This document shows positions 518 to 7,702 of a stretch of DNA of 64,000 nucleotides, piece by piece. The notes under the pieces are model-generated. The model was not told the DNA's origin. It did not search any database and saw only the letters and a program-made list of their open reading frames with translations. Source of the stretch: Flavobacterium sp. AED (GTDB lineage: Bacteria; Bacteroidota; Bacteroidia; Flavobacteriales; Flavobacteriaceae). Made by a program: the position numbers and the translations under genes. The stretch is from assembly GCF_000812945.1 (NCBI RefSeq), contig NZ_JSYM01000001.1:1860001-1924000 (forward strand), read 5' to 3'. Position 1 is the first letter of the stretch. Each line of letters opens with the position of its first letter.

Positions 518-2332
518 ATGACAACAATTAAACCACTTCATACATTTCATATTCCGGTAATGGGACTTGCATATACGATTGATAGTCCTATAAGAGTGGC
601 GAAGTATGGAATATCTTCTGTGATTTCAATTATGGATGATGAACTTATCGAAAAAATGAATGCATTTTATAGTAAGAAATTTGATCTTCCTTACCAAGAA
701 ATCACTCAAAAAATTCATGATTATAGGGCAGAACGAATTACTTCTTATTTGAATTTGGTAGACAAAATCGTAAAAGAAAAATTTGAAAATTTAAAAACTG
801 AGTTGTCCGAGAGCAAATTAGCATTGGAAAATTATATAGCAATGTTGCCCAATAAATCGGAAATTAAATTAGGCTTGCAAAATTTGTTGGAAGACGGTTT
901 TGCTTTCAAAGAAAACATCAAAAATTATCTGGAGAATAATCTTTATCCGGGTGCTATTGATGTGAATATAATGACCAAACTCGATAAGGACAATTTCATT
1001 AAGGATGAACAATTACCAATTGCTTTCAATGATGCGCATGCCGCTCTACGGGGCTTTGCCAATAGCACGTTAGAATCATCAGTAGTTTTATCTGCAGGAA
1101 TGAATCCCAGGTTGTACAGTTACTTTGAAAATTTTACGGCTTTCTTTCCTGATTTGAATAACACACTAAAAAAGAAAATTACGCTGAAAGTAAGCGATTT
1201 TCGTTCGGCGATGATTCAAGGGAATTTTTTAGCCAAGAAAGGACTTTGGGTTTCTGAATACCGAATAGAATCAGGACTAAATTGTGGCGGACATGCTTTT
1301 GCTACCGATGGGTATCTGTTGGGACCCATTTTAGAAGAATTCAAACAGAAAAAAGACCAATTGATTCAATCTGCCCATGATTTGATGGTGAAAGCTTTGG
1401 GACAAAAAGAAATGCATGTTCCGGAACAGCCATTGGATTTAAAAATCACCGTTCAAGGAGGTGTAGGAACTTCTGAAGAACACGATTTCCTATTGGATCA
1501 TTATAAAGTTGATGCTGTGGGTTGGGGTTCCCCATTTTTATTGGTTCCCGAAGCGACTTCCGTTAATAAACACACCAGAATATTATTGGCTGGAGCCAAA
1601 GAAGATGATTTGTATTTAAGTCATATTTCGCCGTTGGGAATTCCTTTTAATACGTTGCGAGGAACAACTAATGAAAAATTAAAACTGAAACGCATTGAGG
1701 AAAGTAAAGCGGGAAGTTCGTGTCCAAAGCGATTTTTGGCGTTAAGCAAAGAATACGATGTAAAAGGAATTTGCACTTCTTCCAAAAAATACCAAGATCT
1801 AAAACTGGAAGAATTATTGCAGCAAAAAGATATTCTATCAGCAGATGTTTATAATAAAAAGAAAAGCAGCATTACTGAAAAAGCATGTCTTTGTGTAGGT
1901 TTGGCCAATGCTTCGTATCTCGAAAATGATATTAAAATTAAAGGGCAGGCACAAGGCGTAATTATTTGTCCTGGACCCAATATGGCTTATTTTGACCAAG
2001 AAGTTTCACTTTCTAAAATGGTGCAACATATTTATGGAAACGCTTCTGTATTAACGGCTGCGAATCGTCCTAATCTCTTTGTCAAAGAATTAAAAATGTA
2101 TTTGGATTACTTGACAAATGAAATCGCGGCAGTTTCTGATGAAATTACTGCGGCGCAAATAAAAAAATGGCATTCATTCCAAAAGAATTTGATGGAAGGA
2201 ATCGCATATTATGAAGATTTATTTTCAGCAACGCCTTTTTTCGAAAGCACTAAAAAAGAGATTCTAAATCAATTTAATAGTTATAAAACTACATTGATTG
2301 AAATTCAAATTCCGGAATTAGTTTTGGTTTAA
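518..2332 (+). CDS. Conserved uncharacterised protein, possible FMN-binding TIM-barrel (NPD/IMPDH-like)
   Basis: I chose the ATG at 518 (604 aa) because the 17 residues upstream of it in the same frame look like translated leader; the product then starts MTTIKPLHTFHIPVMGLAYT. The N-terminal HIPVMG...DSPIRVAKYGISSVIS resembles the first strand-loop of nitronate monooxygenase or IMPDH-type barrels. SGLNCGGHAF (near residue 256) and VQGGVGTSEEHDFLL followed by VDAVGWGSPFLLVPEA (about 312-345) look like the late glycine-rich phosphate-binding loops of FMN barrels. A C-terminal part holds Cys at about 402, 419, 457 and 459. The substrate is unknown, and the gene appears monocistronic with its own terminator. 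The flavoenzyme assignment is an inference from motif appearance; I do not recognise a named family. Confidence 0.6.
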   Translation: MTTIKPLHTFHIPVMGLAYTIDSPIRVAKYGISSVISIMDDELIEKMNAFYSKKFDLPYQEITQKIHDYRAERITSYLNLVDKIVKEKFENLKTELSESKLALENYIAMLPNKSEIKLGLQNLLEDGFAFKENIKNYLENNLYPGAIDVNIMTKLDKDNFIKDEQLPIAFNDAHAALRGFANSTLESSVVLSAGMNPRLYSYFENFTAFFPDLNNTLKKKITLKVSDFRSAMIQGNFLAKKGLWVSEYRIESGLNCGGHAFATDGYLLGPILEEFKQKKDQLIQSAHDLMVKALGQKEMHVPEQPLDLKITVQGGVGTSEEHDFLLDHYKVDAVGWGSPFLLVPEATSVNKHTRILLAGAKEDDLYLSHISPLGIPFNTLRGTTNEKLKLKRIEESKAGSSCPKRFLALSKEYDVKGICTSSKKYQDLKLEELLQQKDILSADVYNKKKSSITEKACLCVGLANASYLENDIKIKGQAQGVIICPGPNMAYFDQEVSLSKMVQHIYGNASVLTAANRPNLFVKELKMYLDYLTNEIAAVSDEITAAQIKKWHSFQKNLMEGIAYYEDLFSATPFFESTKKEILNQFNSYKTTLIEIQIPELVLV

Positions 2333-2337
2333 TACTA

Positions 2338-2372
2338 AATAGGCTTGACGTTTTTCAAGCCTATTTTTTTAT
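2338..2372 (+). terminator. Intrinsic terminator after the 604-aa gene
   Basis: Perfect 11-bp stem AATAGGCTTGA/TCAAGCCTATT with a short loop, followed by a run of T. It starts 6 bases after the stop codon. Confidence 0.85.
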
Positions 2373-2454
2373 TTTCTGTAACCGAGGAAATAATAATAAA
2401 ATAAAAAAGGTCTTTTAATTTTTCAAATTAGATTTACTTTAAAAAATTATAATC

Positions 2455-2462
2455 TACCTTTG
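2455..2462 (+). promoter_or_regulatory. Bacteroidota -7 promoter element TACCTTTG
   Basis: Exact match to the Bacteroidota -7 consensus TAnnTTTG. It ends only four bases before the GTG start at 2467, so the transcript from it should begin at or within a few bases of the start codon (leaderless mRNA). No clear -33 TTG is visible at the usual spacing. Confidence 0.6.
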
Positions 2463-2466
2463 CCCC

Positions 2467-2841
2467 GTGAAAAAAATAGCATTCATAATAGTATTGTTCA
2501 TGTTTTTAAAGCCACTATTTCCGGTTTTAGAATATGCAATTAATTATGAATATATTTCAAAAGTGCTGTGTGTTAACAAGGCAAAACCGATGATGCATTG
2601 TAATGGGAAGTGCCATTTGATGAAAGAATTAGCCAAAGCACAAGAAGAAGAAAAACAAACATCTTCTAACAAAAAGAATACAACATTCGATACTGTTGAT
2701 TTAATTTTGGACATCAAAAACGACTTCTCCTTATTAGTTTATAACGGAAATACCAAAACACCAATACATTCAAAATATAGTAATCTATATTCCCACCTGA
2801 ATTTATATTCCATTTTTCATCCGCCCATTTTTATTTCTTAA
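2467..2841 (+). CDS. Small membrane-anchored protein with C-x8-HC-x3-CH motif, first gene of copper-type cassette
   Basis: 124 aa with a GTG start. A hydrophobic N-terminus (KKIAFIIVLFMFLKPLFPVL) serves as signal anchor. It is followed by VLCVNKAKPMMHCNGKCHLM, where Cys35, His44, Cys45, Cys49 and His50 form a possible metal site, with two Met at 42-43 next to it. The rest is Lys/Glu-rich and ends in a Tyr/Ser/Leu tail. I do not recognise a named family. Its place upstream of an MbnP-like lipoprotein and a MauG-type enzyme suggests a role in handling copper at the inner membrane, which is inference. The GTG is preferred because no other start preserves the signal segment. Confidence 0.75.
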   Translation: MKKIAFIIVLFMFLKPLFPVLEYAINYEYISKVLCVNKAKPMMHCNGKCHLMKELAKAQEEEKQTSSNKKNTTFDTVDLILDIKNDFSLLVYNGNTKTPIHSKYSNLYSHLNLYSIFHPPIFIS

Positions 2842-2878
2842 ATTTTAGTTGAAACACTTTTACGTGTATTTTTTCATT

Positions 2879-2890
2879 TGACAAATGTCA
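2879..2890. promoter_or_regulatory. Dyad TGACA-AA-TGTCA upstream of the MbnP-like gene
   Basis: Five-base inverted repeat with a two-base spacer in the 113-bp gap before the lipoprotein gene. Its core ACAnnTGT is like that of CopY-type copper operators (TACAnnTGTA), but the outer bases differ. A second palindrome, TACGCGTA, lies at 2906-2913. Either may be an operator; neither is proven. Confidence 0.3.
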
Positions 2891-2954
2891 TTTGAAACCA
2901 GCTTGTACGCGTAATTATTTCAAAACAAATAAGAAGAAATATACAATCATATAA

Positions 2955-3752
2955 ATGAAAAATTTACGGAATAAAGCAATAGCAATTATTGCATTAAGCG
3001 CTGTCTTTGCAGGCTGTACTAATAATGATGAGGTAATCTCAGGAACAGGAAACTTAGGGGTTGAATTCGATAATTCTTTTGGGTCAAATGACTTGATATT
3101 AAACACGCAAGCCAATACAACTTCCAACGGGGAAGTGTTAAAAATCAATACAGTTAAATACATTATCAGCAACATCGTCTTGACCAAAGAGGATGGAACT
3201 ACTTTTACCTATCCAAAAAGCGAAAGCTATTTTATAGTTGATGAAGCTACTGAAGCCAGTCATTTATTGGAATTAACGAATGTTCCTGCGGCAAATTATA
3301 CCAAAGTAAAATTTGGAATAGGAGTTGACAAAGCGCAATGGGAATTGGGTGCAGCGGGTCAAGGAAATTTCCTGGCTACAGCCCAAGCTGCTGATATGTT
3401 GTGGAGTTGGTCTGCGGGATATAAATTCCTGGCTTTCGAGGGGACATTTACGTCCCCAACAGTAGCTAACAGTACCTCATTTATGGTTCATACGGGACAA
3501 ACGGGAACAAATTATAACTATACCGAAGTAACACTTGATTTGCCTACAAAAGCGATGGTACGAACTACTATTGCTCCAGAAATTCATGTTGTGGCGGATG
3601 TGTCTAAAATTATTGACGGAACAAACAAAATCAAATTGTCTGACAATAACATGGGCGGAATGGGAGCCATGATTATGGGTGGAACAAATTTGCCTTTAAT
3701 CACAGCAAACCTTAACGGAATGTTTACGGTAGCGCACGTTCATAACGATTAA
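2955..3752 (+). CDS. MbnP-like copper-binding lipoprotein
   Basis: 265 aa. The N-terminus ends in a lipobox (LSAVFAGC, Cys21), so the protein is probably an outer-membrane or periplasmic lipoprotein. The fold-defining segment is AADMLWSWSAGYKFLAFEG, with Trp150 and Trp152; this matches the MbnP family signature, in which a Trp is oxidised to kynurenine by the partner di-heme enzyme and helps bind Cu(I). A Met-rich loop (NNMGGMGAMIMGG, about 230-243) and the C-terminal AHVHND add candidate copper ligands. The next enzyme gene encodes an MbnH/MauG-type protein, the expected partner. The match is recalled from family knowledge; which Trp is modified cannot be settled here. No methanobactin precursor or biosynthesis gene is visible nearby. 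Confidence 0.85.
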   Translation: MKNLRNKAIAIIALSAVFAGCTNNDEVISGTGNLGVEFDNSFGSNDLILNTQANTTSNGEVLKINTVKYIISNIVLTKEDGTTFTYPKSESYFIVDEATEASHLLELTNVPAANYTKVKFGIGVDKAQWELGAAGQGNFLATAQAADMLWSWSAGYKFLAFEGTFTSPTVANSTSFMVHTGQTGTNYNYTEVTLDLPTKAMVRTTIAPEIHVVADVSKIIDGTNKIKLSDNNMGGMGAMIMGGTNLPLITANLNGMFTVAHVHND

Positions 3753-3766
3753 TACGTGCTGAATTA

Positions 3767-3909
3767 GAAGCTATTTCCTGCTATACATTGCAAGTCCTCG
3801 CTAAAAAATGTGGTTTTCTAAGCTGGAAAAAGAGCTTCCTTTGGTCGCTTTTTTCCAGCAAGAAAAACTACATTTTTCTGCTGTGGGCTTTCCATTACTA
3901 TCAGGGCTA
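3767..3909. repeat. Dispersed hairpin repeat, copy A
   Basis: Begins GAAGCTATTTCCTGCT and ends CTTTCCATTACTATCAGGGCTA, the same edges as the copies at 7772 and 60069. The interior folds into a long stem: AAAAATGTGGTTTTCTAAGCTGG pairs imperfectly with CCAGCAAGAAAAACTACATTTTT around a loop containing AGCTTCCTTTGGTCGCT. It lies inside the cassette between the lipoprotein and di-heme enzyme genes, and its chance open frame gives the enzyme a spurious N-terminal extension. Confidence 0.75.
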
Positions 3910-3921
3910 AAAAACGTGAAG

Positions 3922-4959
3922 ATGTACAAATTAATACTGTTATTTCTTTTTTTGACTTTGCTTTCCAGTTGTTCGGATCAAGATGATGTTTATGTCAATA
4001 AACCTTTAGATTTCGAAGTGCCATCTAATTTTCCAGATTTGGCTTATAATATCGCATTGAATCCACCAACAGAGAAAGGATTTGAACTGGGAAAAAAGTT
4101 GTTCTACGATGGAAGATTATCTTCGGACGGTCTTATTTCTTGCGGTTTTTGTCACATTCAGGAAAATGCATTTACACATCATGGGCATACTTTCAGTCAC
4201 GGAGTTGGGGATAATATCGGAACCAGAAACACGCCTCCGATTCAAAATTTAGGCTATCAAACGGCATTTATGTACGATGGAGCAACAACGCATCTGGATT
4301 TGCAACCTATTATTCCGTTGACAAGTGCGATTGAAATGAATGGAAATTTGACGGCAATTGTTGCCATGATGAAAGCCGATAAAACCTATCAAAAGCTTTT
4401 TCAGCAAGCATTTACTGATGGAGCCATAAATACCGAAAATATGCTGAAAGCACTTTCTCAATTTATGTTAATGGTGACGTCATCCAATTCTAAATTTGAT
4501 AAATACCGACGTAATGAAACGGGCGGTACTTTAACTTCGGAGGAATTAGCGGGTTATACACTTTTCAATGCTAAGTGTGCTTCTTGTCATGCAACGGATT
4601 TGATGACTGATAATTCCTATCGGAATAATGGTTTGGCAGTCAATCCGCAAATAAATGATGTGGGAAGATTTCGTGTGACACAATTGGCAGCGGATTATTA
4701 TAAATTCAAAGTGCCTAGTTTGCGAAATATTGAAAAAACTGCACCTTATATGCACGATGGAAGATTCGGGACATTAGAATCTGTTTTGAATCATTATGCT
4801 TCCGGAGTTGTAAATGGAGCCACTTTAGACCCGATTCTAAATCAAAACGGAAATTTAGGAATTCCGCTTTCTGATACTGAAAAAACAAGATTAATTGCCT
4901 TCCTAAAAACACTAACCGATAATCAATATCTCACCGATAAACGATTCTCAGAATATTAA
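3922..4959 (+). CDS. MbnH/MauG-family di-heme c-type peroxidase lipoprotein
   Basis: 345 aa from the ATG at 3922. This start puts the signal LILLFLFLTLLSSC directly at the N-terminus with Cys17 as lipid anchor; an upstream ATG at 3808 would only translate the repeat. Two haem-binding motifs are present, CGFCH (74-78) and CASCH (219-223), as in the CcpA/MauG family, whose usual length is similar. PSLRNIEKTAPYMHDGRFGTL (about 265-285) is the conserved region near the second haem, where MauG-type enzymes have a Tyr ligand. The predicted role is high-valent iron oxidation of a Trp in the adjacent MbnP-like protein. An ordinary cytochrome c peroxidase is the alternative, but the partner gene favours MbnH. 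The next gene starts 5 bases after the stop. Confidence 0.85.
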   Translation: MYKLILLFLFLTLLSSCSDQDDVYVNKPLDFEVPSNFPDLAYNIALNPPTEKGFELGKKLFYDGRLSSDGLISCGFCHIQENAFTHHGHTFSHGVGDNIGTRNTPPIQNLGYQTAFMYDGATTHLDLQPIIPLTSAIEMNGNLTAIVAMMKADKTYQKLFQQAFTDGAINTENMLKALSQFMLMVTSSNSKFDKYRRNETGGTLTSEELAGYTLFNAKCASCHATDLMTDNSYRNNGLAVNPQINDVGRFRVTQLAADYYKFKVPSLRNIEKTAPYMHDGRFGTLESVLNHYASGVVNGATLDPILNQNGNLGIPLSDTEKTRLIAFLKTLTDNQYLTDKRFSEY

Positions 4960-4963
4960 AACC

Positions 4964-5935
4964 ATGAAAAATAAAATTTTAATTATTGTTTTAGTTCTTT
5001 TTGTAAACCAGTTTGTTTTTGCCAAAACAGAAAAAGACAGCATTTCGAGATTTACCTTCCAGAAAATGCAATTGCTTGAAGATTTCGAAGATGATTGTGA
5101 TGCCTGTGGTTGTTCTGCAAGTGGAGGTAGTATGGGATTTAGTTCTATGCTGAATAATAATTTTGTAGGCTTGCGCTATTTCAATCAAAGTTATACCAGT
5201 AGAGACGGGATTTTCGCCAATTCACCGTGGATTGACGAAAATTTCAATACAATCCAAATTTGGACTAAAATACCAATTACAGAAAAAATCCAGATTTCGG
5301 CATTGGTTCCGTATCACTTTCACACTCGGGAACGTTCCACCGGAACAGAAAACATTCAAGGATTGGGCGATATCTCCGTTATGGCGATGTATTCTGTATA
5401 TCAAACGCAAAAAGACAGCACAGTTTTTACCCATAAACTGCAATTGGGAGGAGGAGTAAAAATACCTACAGGAAAATTTGATGAAGCTAACAATACCGGA
5501 AGTGTCAACCAGAGTTTCCAAGTGGGAACAGGAAGTTGGGATTATCTTTTGGTTTCGGAATATGTTGTCAAAAAGAAAAATTTAGGATTAAGCACGATGC
5601 TGAATTATACTTTCAAAACCGAAAACCAAAAGCAATACCAATTTGGAAATCAATTTAATTACGGCAGTACACTGTTTTATCTTTTTGATTTACCCGCTGT
5701 AAAACTGGTTCCGCAATTGGGTTTGGCGGGCGAAGTCTATGAAACCAATAAGCAATATGGAGAAAAGTTACCGGATACTTCTGGAGATATTCTTTTTAGT
5801 AAATTTGGAATTGAAGCTGGAAAAGGGGACTTTTCCATCGGTGTTAATGCCATGCTTCCCATCAATCAACATTTGTCCAATTCAAAAATCGAAGCCAATT
5901 ACCGTTGGAGTGTCAATTTAAATTATACGTTGTAA
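4964..5935 (+). CDS. Outer-membrane beta-barrel (transporter-like) protein with CxxCxC motif
   Basis: 323 aa with a signal peptide (KNKILIIVLVLFVNQFVFA). The mature N-terminus carries DDCDACGCSASGGSMG, with Cys45, Cys48 and Cys50 next to Ser/Gly/Met, a plausible metal-capture tail. The rest alternates aromatic and polar residues in beta strands and ends in NLNYTL, as outer-membrane barrels do. It starts 5 bases after the di-heme enzyme gene, so it is surely co-transcribed. The family is probably one of the barrels annotated simply as transporter next to MbnP/MbnH pairs. Copper passage or sensing is inferred from context and the Cys motif. Confidence 0.7.
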   Translation: MKNKILIIVLVLFVNQFVFAKTEKDSISRFTFQKMQLLEDFEDDCDACGCSASGGSMGFSSMLNNNFVGLRYFNQSYTSRDGIFANSPWIDENFNTIQIWTKIPITEKIQISALVPYHFHTRERSTGTENIQGLGDISVMAMYSVYQTQKDSTVFTHKLQLGGGVKIPTGKFDEANNTGSVNQSFQVGTGSWDYLLVSEYVVKKKNLGLSTMLNYTFKTENQKQYQFGNQFNYGSTLFYLFDLPAVKLVPQLGLAGEVYETNKQYGEKLPDTSGDILFSKFGIEAGKGDFSIGVNAMLPINQHLSNSKIEANYRWSVNLNYTL

Positions 5936-5941
5936 AAACAG

Positions 5942-5973
5942 AAAAAGGAGCTTCAATTGAAGCTCCTTTTTTA
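5942..5973. terminator. Bidirectional terminator between the copper-type cassette and lysS
   Basis: AAAAAGGAGCTTC pairs with GAAGCTCCTTTTT around AATT. It has A/T tracts on both sides and sits between convergent genes. Confidence 0.85.
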
Positions 5974-5992
5974 TATAATCAAACGGAATAAA

Positions 5993-7702
5993 CTATTCAG
6001 CTAATTCCACCACTTTACTATCACCTACTAAAGCGACTTTCACTAAACCATGTTTTGCCAAACCTTTCATGGCAGCATCCCATTTCTTTCCGCTTAAATC
6101 TGATTTTACTTTCAATAATCCCAAATCCATTTTGCTTTCATTGGTTTTCAAAAGAGCAATGATTAATTTCTCTTCGTCTAGCAATTCAATTTGAACTTGT
6201 TTTTTCTCTGGTCGCATTTGTGGGAACAACAATACTTCTTGAATAGAAGCATTATTAGTTAAATACATAATCAATCGATCCATTCCAATTCCCATTCCAG
6301 ATGTTGGAGGCATTCCGTATTCTAAAGCTCTCAAGAAATCTTCATCGATAATTCCTGTGGCTTCATCATCTCCTTTTTCAGCCAATCTCATTTGGTCTTC
6401 AAAACGTTCTCTTTGGTCAATTGGGTCATTCAATTCAGAATAAGCGTTTGCTACTTCTTTACCACAAACCATTAATTCAAAACGTTCTGTCAATTCCGGA
6501 TTGTCACGGTGTTGTTTACATAATGGTGACATTTCCTTTGGATAATCCGTGATATAAGTGGGTTGGATGTAATTTCCTTCACATTTTGCTCCAAAAATCT
6601 CATCAATCAGTTTTCCTTTACCCATTGTGGCATCTACATCAATTCCCATGCCTCTGGCAGCGTCAAATAACTCTACTTCACTTTTTCCAGAAATATCAAA
6701 TCCTGTAAAATGTTTGATAGAATCGGTCATCGTAACTCGTGCATAAGGTGCTTTAAAGTTGATGGTATGTTCTCCAAAAGTCACTTCTGATGTCCCATTT
6801 ACGGCAATCGCGCAATGCTCCAAAAGATCTTCGGCAAATTTCATCATCCAGTTGTAGTCTTTGTAGGCTACATATATTTCCATGGCAGTAAATTCCGGAT
6901 TGTGCGTACGGTCCATTCCTTCATTACGGAAGTTTTTCGAAAACTCATAAACCCCTTCAAAACCACCAACAATTAATCTTTTTAAGTACAACTCATTCGC
7001 AATACGCATGTATAAAGGCATATCAAGCGAGTTGTGGTGCGTGATAAAAGGACGCGCTGCAGCTCCACCAGGAATTGGTTGTAAAACAGGAGTTTCTACC
7101 TCTAAATATCCTTTGTCATTAAAGAAAGAACGCATTGCATTGAACAATTTTGTTCTCTTGATAAACGTTTCTTTGACATGATCGTTCACTGTTAAATCTA
7201 CATAACGACGACGGTATCTTTGTTCTGGATCAGCAAAAGCATCGTGCGTTTTTCCGTCAGCATCCGTTTTTACAACTGGTAGTGGTTTCAAGGCTTTTGC
7301 CAAAACCGTCAATCCATAAACATGAACGGAAATTTCCCCAACTTGCGTTTTGAAAACCGTTCCACGAATCCCAATAAAATCGCCAATATCCAATAGTTTT
7401 TTGAAAACTACATTGTACATTGTTTTCTCCTCATCAGTCGAAATATCATCTCTCGAAACATAGATTTGAATACGTCCTTCAGCATCTTTCAATTCTGCAA
7501 ATGACGCCTTTCCCATGATACGCTTACCCATCAAACGTCCTGCTAAAACAACTTCTTTTCCTTCGTACTTCTCGAAATCGGCTAGGATTTCGCTCGAATA
7601 AGCGGTTGTGATAAATTCGGCTGCTGGATAAGGCTCAATGCCTAAATTGCGTAATTCGGTAAGTGCTTCTCTACGTAATATTTCTTGTTCGGATAATGCC
7701 AT
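5993..7702 (-). CDS. lysS: Lysyl-tRNA synthetase, class II
   Basis: 569 aa. It charges tRNA-Lys with lysine in the cytoplasm. The OB-fold anticodon-binding part is N-terminal (VVLAGRLMGKRIMGKASFAE, then GEISVHV). The class II core follows, with motif 2 FRNEGMDRTHNPEFTAMEIY and motif 3 SGMGIGMDRLIMYLT. The end (about 500-569) is a flavobacterial C-terminal extension, about 60 residues longer than the E. coli enzyme. Start MALSEQEILRREALTELRNLG is typical. A good promoter lies upstream at 7724-7755. Confidence 0.97.
   Translation of the reverse strand: MALSEQEILRREALTELRNLGIEPYPAAEFITTAYSSEILADFEKYEGKEVVLAGRLMGKRIMGKASFAELKDAEGRIQIYVSRDDISTDEEKTMYNVVFKKLLDIGDFIGIRGTVFKTQVGEISVHVYGLTVLAKALKPLPVVKTDADGKTHDAFADPEQRYRRRYVDLTVNDHVKETFIKRTKLFNAMRSFFNDKGYLEVETPVLQPIPGGAAARPFITHHNSLDMPLYMRIANELYLKRLIVGGFEGVYEFSKNFRNEGMDRTHNPEFTAMEIYVAYKDYNWMMKFAEDLLEHCAIAVNGTSEVTFGEHTINFKAPYARVTMTDSIKHFTGFDISGKSEVELFDAARGMGIDVDATMGKGKLIDEIFGAKCEGNYIQPTYITDYPKEMSPLCKQHRDNPELTERFELMVCGKEVANAYSELNDPIDQRERFEDQMRLAEKGDDEATGIIDEDFLRALEYGMPPTSGMGIGMDRLIMYLTNNASIQEVLLFPQMRPEKKQVQIELLDEEKLIIALLKTNESKMDLGLLKVKSDLSGKKWDAAMKGLAKHGLVKVALVGDSKVVELAE

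Follow-up and report, generated by a model that had tools for sequence, protein, structure and literature searches.

A putative surface copper-capture operon in Flavobacterium, headed by a candidate copper-sensing arrest peptide with relatives across the Bacteroidota

A cluster of four genes, read here as a putative copper-capture system of the cell envelope, lies in the window, by which we mean the whole 64,000-nucleotide stretch analysed (G000:C1:1860001-1924000), from the 3.93-Mb genome of Flavobacterium sp. AED, a bacterium of the soil and water type. The same-strand open reading frames (ORFs) span positions 2467-2841, 2955-3752, 3922-4959 and 4964-5935 of the window (+ strand) and are referred to below as genes 1 to 4, genes 2 and 3 also as mbnP and mbnH. 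A preliminary description of this DNA had listed, in this order, a small Cys/His protein, an MbnP-like lipoprotein, an MbnH/MauG-type di-heme enzyme and a barrel with a CxxCxC motif; the ORFs, the lipobox, the two CxxCH motifs and CDACGC were all confirmed. The four genes look like one transcription unit (2455-5971). Its upstream border is a terminator-like hairpin with a 12-bp stem and a following T-run (2337-2366, +), identified by pattern match only and located 3' of the preceding unrelated gene. The sequence TACCTTTG (2455-2462, +), a Bacteroidota-type -7 box, lies 4 nt 5' of the GTG start of gene 1; we take TAnnTTTG to be the Bacteroidota -7 consensus. The downstream border is an inverted repeat with T-rich ends (5942-5971) shared with the convergent lysS, for which the scan lists a terminator on the - strand only. 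No Rfam family matched within 2300-6050.

The arrangement is conserved. All four genes were present in the same order in 40 of 40 loci from named genomes, all Flavobacterium or Flavobacteriaceae, and the order was kept in 25 of the 29 best-scoring further Flavobacteriaceae loci; both sets were collected via MbnP similarity, and the counts thus show linkage rather than frequency. In the other four (L007, L020, L025 and L027), genes 1 and 4 were absent within their 3.6 kb. Further away in the phylum, other families also have the order gene 1-mbnP-mbnH-barrel (L199, L220, L224, L226, L227 and L238). Because the 40 named MbnP-found loci keep the order without exception, the arrangement is not a matter of chance, and the proposal that the genes form a unit was borne out. 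The closest named match returned for the MbnP was from F. gawalongense (97%). On the far side of the upstream hairpin, positions 467-2332 encode a 621-aa Cys-containing protein with no Pfam or NCBIfam family over cut-off; the same type of protein is found downstream of the cassette in L038 and L040.

Gene 2 (2955-3752, +) encodes an MbnP-family lipoprotein with C-TNNDE after the lipobox. It matched PF20243 (MbnP) with 154 bits against a curated cut-off of 27, and its AlphaFold2 (AF2) model, with a predicted local distance difference test score (pLDDT) of 87.1, aligned in VIA-align to the MbnP structure 7L6G with a Z of 16.7 and an rmsd of 3.4 over 218 residues, the next entry reaching a Z of 5.2. 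The segments MLWSW and MVHTG align to MAWNW and MVHVG of 7L6G. The former, M148-x-W150-x-W152 (3396-3410, +), is the expected site of Trp-to-kynurenine conversion, and the latter (3483-3497, +) contains H179, a putative copper ligand; M148, W150, W152 and H179 were invariant in 20 of 20 MbnPs. In a 2021 PNAS paper, the first Trp reportedly becomes kynurenine, with Met and His binding Cu(I). The MbnP-like assignment made earlier is supported by the family match, the fold and the retained site residues. Against TIGR04052, the MbnP_like_WxW equivalog, gene 2 scored 40 bits, under the cut-off of 140. It lacks the four-Cys motif of methanotroph MbnP, and its sole Cys is C21 of the lipobox. Taking the score under the TIGR04052 cut-off and the single lipobox Cys together, we regard gene 2, on its sequence, as a divergent lipoprotein branch of MbnP. 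A second MbnP candidate in the genome (C7:44453; 21.9 bits, under the cut-off) was rejected as a pair member; the ORF translation at its 3.2-kb locus (L002) lacks WxW, and the locus gave zero matches to the proteins of the window.

Gene 3 (3922-4959, +) encodes an MbnH/MauG-type di-heme lipoprotein with CSDQDD after the lipobox and heme sites CGFCH and CASCH at residues 74 and 219. A longer start at 3808 is less likely, as the start at 3922 begins a lipoprotein signal. The best model was TIGR04039 (MbnH family di-heme enzyme; 218.7 bits, under the cut-off of 362.85) and the best PDB match was 6E1C. In MbnH and MauG, a Tyr replaces Met as the sixth ligand of one heme. Tyr292 of gene 3 aligns with the Tyr of 6E1C and with the Met of the cytochrome c peroxidase 4AAL, and was invariant in 19 of 19 MbnHs. 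The two CxxCH sites, Tyr292 and the best model thus agree with the MbnH/MauG-type assignment, and the suggested comparison with the MbnP and MbnH families turned out mixed, PF20243 being passed and the cut-offs of TIGR04052 and TIGR04039 missed. The cassette had also been described as free of methanobactin genes; a profile search found no MbnB-family gene (PF05114) in the genome, while other methanobactin genes were not searched for. Between mbnP and mbnH, the gap of 169 nt contains an inverted repeat at 3822-3859 (GCTGGAAAAA ... TTTTTCCAGC), a possible RNA processing or attenuation element.

Gene 4 (4964-5935, +) encodes an outer-membrane barrel with an N-terminal segment carrying CDACGC at residue 45. 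It had zero Pfam or NCBIfam family matches. The AF2 model was a barrel with a pLDDT of 74.5, under 50 in the N-terminal part, and the top Foldseek matches were FapF (5O67) and a COG4313 channel (4RL8), with a TM of about 0.6 on the query and 11-14% identity. The predicted fold thus resembles the FapF and COG4313 outer-membrane channels, differing by the added CxxCxC N-terminal segment. This motif was absent from a single one (L060) of 40 barrels from named genomes. Together with its weaker relatives, the barrel occurred in 50 of 249 Flavobacteriaceae genomes. At L119, L125, L135, L145, L149, L152 and L153, gene 1 is followed by a MetA-type barrel of ~340 aa, a distant relative of gene 4, without MbnP and MbnH (MbnPH).

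The barrel is tied to the C-terminus of MbnP, which in the window ends in the tail H-V-H-N (3735-3746, +). Distinct MbnPs were compared by whether a barrel lies in the 3.4 kb downstream of them; an H-x-H motif was present in the last 14 residues of 73 of the 75 that have one and of none of the 16 that do not. Of these 16, 7 had at least 2.6 kb of downstream sequence and the rest 1.2-2.0 kb, so that in the rest a farther barrel could have been missed. Tail and barrel were concordant in 89 of 91 MbnPs, the exceptions being the second pair in L058 and L199, which has a weak barrel match. As the presence of H-x-H tracks that of the barrel, these sequences suggest that the MbnP tail and the barrel act together. 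L058 contains two successive MbnPH pairs between a single gene 1 and a single barrel, and only the first MbnP has the tail.

A lipobox was found in 90 of 91 MbnPs and 88 of 93 MbnHs. At least two acidic residues at positions +2 to +6 after the lipobox Cys were found in 83 of 90 MbnPs and 60 of 88 MbnHs, compared with 52 of 219 other lipobox-like ORFs. Surface-export signals SDDFE and SDDDD have been derived for lipoproteins of F. johnsoniae and B. fragilis (PMC5080379; this and the other papers cited by PMC number are drawn on for the parts available to us). Because the acidic residues resemble these signals, both proteins are likely exposed on the cell surface, MbnP more so than MbnH. The envelope copper role proposed for the locus gains from the MbnP/MbnH identity, the conserved unit and these export signals, which together are consistent with a function in copper handling.

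Gene 1 (2467-2841, +) encodes a small protein of 124 residues with an N-terminal hydrophobic segment, which we consider a candidate copper-sensing arrest peptide, the product of an upstream open reading frame (uORF). No Pfam or NCBIfam family matched over cut-off; weak matches to RecD-like SH3, YodN and others fell far under the cut-offs, differed between members and were dismissed as chance. Its motif is C35-x8-H-C45-x3-C49-H, in which C35-x9-C45-x3-C49 and the following H50 form a putative metal site (2569-2613, +). Every one of 178 distinct homologs contained C-x(5-10)-C-x3-C, with a spacing of exactly nine in 174 and a variant in 4. All 178 had Pro-Pro among their last 15 residues, 167 of them 2-4 residues before the stop; the loci had been collected with models that include Pro-Pro, a possible bias, and a model restricted to the first 60 residues, run only among the loci already collected, also gave 178 distinct members, all with PP. 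In gene 1 the codons of F-H-P-P (2815-2826, +), the candidate arrest site, lie 4 residues before the stop and 69 residues after C49. Across the homologs the third Cys and the Pro were separated by 62-73 residues (mean 67.4, sd 2.1), and conservation in the linker (residues 58-112) averaged 28%. For comparison, 443 other genes of these loci included six with Pro-Pro in the last 10 residues. These six were rejected as leaders of the gene-1 type, by eye four being fasciclin-like, one SSB-like and one a membrane protein of 93 aa.

The family was detected in 153 of 249 Flavobacteriaceae genomes and in 147 of 395 genomes across the Bacteroidota; MbnP was rarer (119 of 249 and 97 of 395, respectively), and so, among the Flavobacteriaceae, was the barrel. 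In the loci read, gene 1 heads differing same-strand gene sets. Among loci mostly chosen to show contexts other than an adjacent MbnP, the first gene after gene 1 carried a TonB Plug domain in 32 of the 58 scanned (from 59) and matched a MetA-type barrel model in 9, and the second gene was PepSY_TM in 16 and YtkA-like in 11 of the 51 scanned (from 56). The TonB-copper model was the best match, always under cut-off, of six among nine hand-picked downstream receptors. L110, L111 and L113-L117 represent a second Flavobacteriaceae MbnPH operon type, consisting of gene 1, a ~307-aa protein, a ~661-aa TonB receptor, MbnP and MbnH, in which MbnP has no H-x-H tail and no barrel was seen; in L110 the ~307-aa protein is a weak YtkA-like match and the receptor is TonB-copper-like. 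Tandem or repeated copies of gene 1 were observed in L113, L117, L212, L226, L227, L230, L231 and L233, sometimes before two successive gene sets.

In 130 of 177 homologs, as against 19% of shuffled sequences, the 230 nt preceding the first Cys codon contained a -7 box, and in 123 of these 130 it was 100-149 nt before that codon, that is, within ~50 nt of the start codon. The box was not enriched in the gap after gene 1 (8 of 162, with 15.5 expected), and by eye no TAnnTTTG box is present in the 113-nt intergenic region of the window (2842-2954, +). This region is structured; from the end of gene 1 to the mbnP start (2815-2960) the sequence folds at -28.5 kcal/mol with a z of -4.4. When the final 30 nt of gene 1 were blocked in silico, the next start region became less paired, its unpaired fraction rising by 0.104 in gene-1 gaps (0.021 with the gap shuffled) and by 0.022 in control gaps (0.019). 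The rise exceeded 0.2 in 27 of 90 gene-1 gaps and 5 of 90 control gaps (P 8e-4), and this opening, seen at the level of the family but not in the window itself, supports a stalled ribosome turning on the next gene. Of 169 gaps after gene 1, 31 held a terminator-like hairpin, with ~10 in shuffles, and T-runs were enriched (65 against 24). Because the hairpins exceed expectation, a termination-based switch is also possible. An intrinsic attenuator was considered and set aside, there being no single conserved element; an alignment of nine gap sequences was divergent beyond close relatives.

Taking these results into account, we propose that the locus is a surface kynurenine-type copper-capture system under the control of an arrest-peptide copper gauge, a reading we hold to be probable. 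Gene 1 has the anatomy of the CruR/CutF-type regulators, with its two motifs in 178 of 178 homologs, its place at the head of a gene set and its box, export being read from the hydrophobic N-terminus only. The preliminary description saw gene 1 as a copper-handling companion. It does travel with the set; its anatomy, however, fits a nascent-chain copper regulator better, in view of the Cys motif, the variable linker of fixed length, Pro-Pro by the stop, the head position and the nearby promoter box. In the proposed mechanism, gene 1 would be exported during translation and Pro-Pro by the stop would pause the ribosome. The Cys site would then be ~69 residues out, on the far side of the translocon and clear of it, if the ribosome covers ~30 residues and the membrane 17 (figures of PMC9973294) and given the spacing of 62-73. 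With copper scarce, the pause would persist and the downstream genes would be on, the stalled ribosome opening the start site and/or blocking termination; copper in the three-Cys site would relieve the pause, and expression would fall. MbnH would oxidise Trp150 of MbnP to kynurenine, and the modified MbnP would bind Cu(I) at the cell surface. The CxxCxC N-terminus of the barrel would take the copper, perhaps via the H-x-H tail, and pass it into the periplasm. Two heme-copper-type oxidase subunits (PF00115) are present in the genome and could need this copper.

Several observations weigh against this proposal. In the window itself, blocking left the mbnP start unopened (0.61 to 0.55), 63 of the 90 tested gaps did not change by more than 0.2, and structure in gene-1 gaps was barely stronger than in other gaps (z -2.77 vs -2.18, P 0.02). 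Most C-termini carry [HRK]PP (134 of 178) and not RAPP. Copies of gene 1 also occur after the barrel in some loci (L048, L051, L057 and L064), and for 71 of 118 MbnP matches in the phylum none of the gene-1 matches listed lay within 4.5 kb upstream, the linkage thus counted being a lower bound. A Trp lies between the hemes in 15 of 19 MbnHs and a Tyr in 4, gene 3 included. Three of the nine hand-picked receptors (721-828 aa; L130, L132 and L123) best matched siderophore models, under cut-off, and some gene-1 operons may therefore handle iron.

A different view of gene 1 is that it is a stable copper chaperone, anchored in the inner membrane or periplasmic, which works with MbnP, MbnH and the barrel, Pro-Pro serving folding, partner binding or turnover. 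An N-terminal hydrophobic segment, a plausible Cys/His metal site and the company of copper-type genes would suit such a protein. Apart from Pro-Pro, which adjoins the stop and keeps a constant spacing to the Cys motif, its C-terminal half is however barely conserved, and the family heads very different gene sets with a promoter box near the start, as a leader would; we therefore consider a chaperone unlikely. An arrest peptide could also work with the opposite sign, copper prolonging the pause and switching the operon on for detoxification or the supply of copper enzymes. CutF acts in this manner and likewise relies on a stem-loop that covers the downstream start (PMC9973294), and opening of the next start by a stalled ribosome in silico would fit this sign as well. 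The family, however, heads TonB receptor sets, a signature of import, and CorA, a comparable surface kynurenine protein, is copper-repressed (PMC3912023). On the analogy of these two points we predict that stalling and expression occur at low copper, and we rate the opposite sign as rather improbable, somewhat more so than the chaperone. The metal, finally, might be iron, zinc or nickel, copper having been deduced only from MbnPH. The siderophore-type receptors of L130, L132 and L123 would agree with this, and specificity for copper is not shared by every CutF-like protein (PMC9973294); MbnPH, the TonB-copper-like receptors and PepSY_TM in a CruR-like order nevertheless speak for copper in part of the family, and MbnP keeps its copper-site residues. 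A metal other than copper appears to us the least probable of these alternatives, and quite improbable.

More broadly, the proposed copper gauge may not be confined to this locus. We put forward, as a tentative idea that could well fail, that the Bacteroidota own phylum-wide co-translational copper gauges with no detectable sequence relation to DUF2946, a spacing of ~67 residues and a metal site on the periplasmic side, which would steer several types of copper-import operon, among them surface kynurenine capture with its own handover channel. The pairing of MbnPH with Cys proteins had been called little described. This stands in part, as operons of CruR/DUF2946 with MbnPH are in print, for other phyla (PMC9426467); also in print are MbnPH beyond methanobactin producers and a catalogue of CutF-like proteins with a Bacteroidota share. 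In the literature searched, the coverage of which was partial so that absence carries little weight, we found no description of the gene-1 family motif, its spacing, its link to the barrel or the tail-barrel relation. Likewise, no Bacteroidota MbnPH system was described among the titles listed, a weak absence with most subscription papers outside the coverage. The family could fill the Bacteroidota gap in a survey of RAPP/RGPP uORFs (PMC12992588), with a different motif, and it provides a ready set of peptides for how metal binding by a nascent chain changes ribosome pausing. The locus would also extend the kynurenine-type copper site to a phylum beyond the methanotrophs, and connect that site with a candidate channel for entry across the outer membrane, a step of bacterial copper uptake about which little is known.

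Among known regulators, CutF of Rhodobacter has a CxxxC motif and a Pro motif at its C-terminus, by which a stem-loop covering the following start is opened, and copper makes the pause last longer (PMC9973294); the sign of regulation proposed for gene 1 is the opposite. In list D of the CutF-like proteins (Ozturk et al. 2023), 19% are from Bacteroidota, or 40% when normalised (PMC9973294), and gene-1 family proteins may be among them. In the parts available, that paper does not describe its Bacteroidota members individually, and MbnP is absent from its main text. CruR (DUF2946) of Bordetella pertussis controls an operon of a TonB receptor and PepSY_TM; copper relieves the stalling and Rho then stops transcription (PMC9426467). 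Its relatives head MbnPH operons in phyla other than the Bacteroidota (PMC9426467), and its arrest has been demonstrated in vitro (PMC12992588). The 2025 survey, as far as its available part goes, did not find copper-related RAPP/RGPP uORFs in groups such as the Bacteroidota (PMC12992588). Like CruR, gene 1 is a first gene encoding a small protein of exported type with a Cys motif and Pro-Pro a few residues before the stop, followed by a long gap, and its family heads both TonB receptor/PepSY_TM and MbnPH sets. It differs in having three Cys (C-x9-C-x3-C) rather than CxxC, mostly [HRK]PP rather than RAPP, and 62-73 residues from Cys to Pro where 45 is given for CruR and CutF in the parts of the papers available. 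None of 47 family members, nor gene 1 of the window, matched DUF2946 (PF11162) at E values up to 1. DUF2946 itself was over cut-off in 5 of 395 Bacteroidota genomes and reached an E of 0.001 in 11. In one genome (G479, locus L242) a true DUF2946 leader, over cut-off and with RGPP at its end, lies 362 nt before MbnP on the same strand, and in another (G626, C51:24866-26055) a weaker match, under cut-off, lies 300 nt before MbnP. Given these two matches, DUF2946 leaders and gene 1 can, to judge by position, occupy the same place upstream of MbnP.

Genes 2 and 3 resemble MbnP and MbnH of Methylosinus trichosporium OB3b (7L6G and 6E1C) in the MbnP fold, in its M-x-W-x-W and VH-x-G residues, and in the adjacent MauG-type partner with its aligned Tyr. 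Unlike the OB3b proteins, they are under the TIGR04052 and TIGR04039 cut-offs and are lipoproteins with acidic signals of the export type; the genome has no MbnB-family gene, and the MbnP has no four-Cys motif but an H-x-H tail linked to a barrel. The MbnP-MbnH pairing reaches far beyond methanobactin producers, and MbnP is not markedly similar in sequence to CorA/MopE (PMC3621798). CorA is a surface kynurenine copper protein (PMC3912023), and by analogy the MbnP/MbnH pair of Flavobacterium would resemble the methanotroph CorA/MopE with its di-heme partner, as a surface copper protein using kynurenine.

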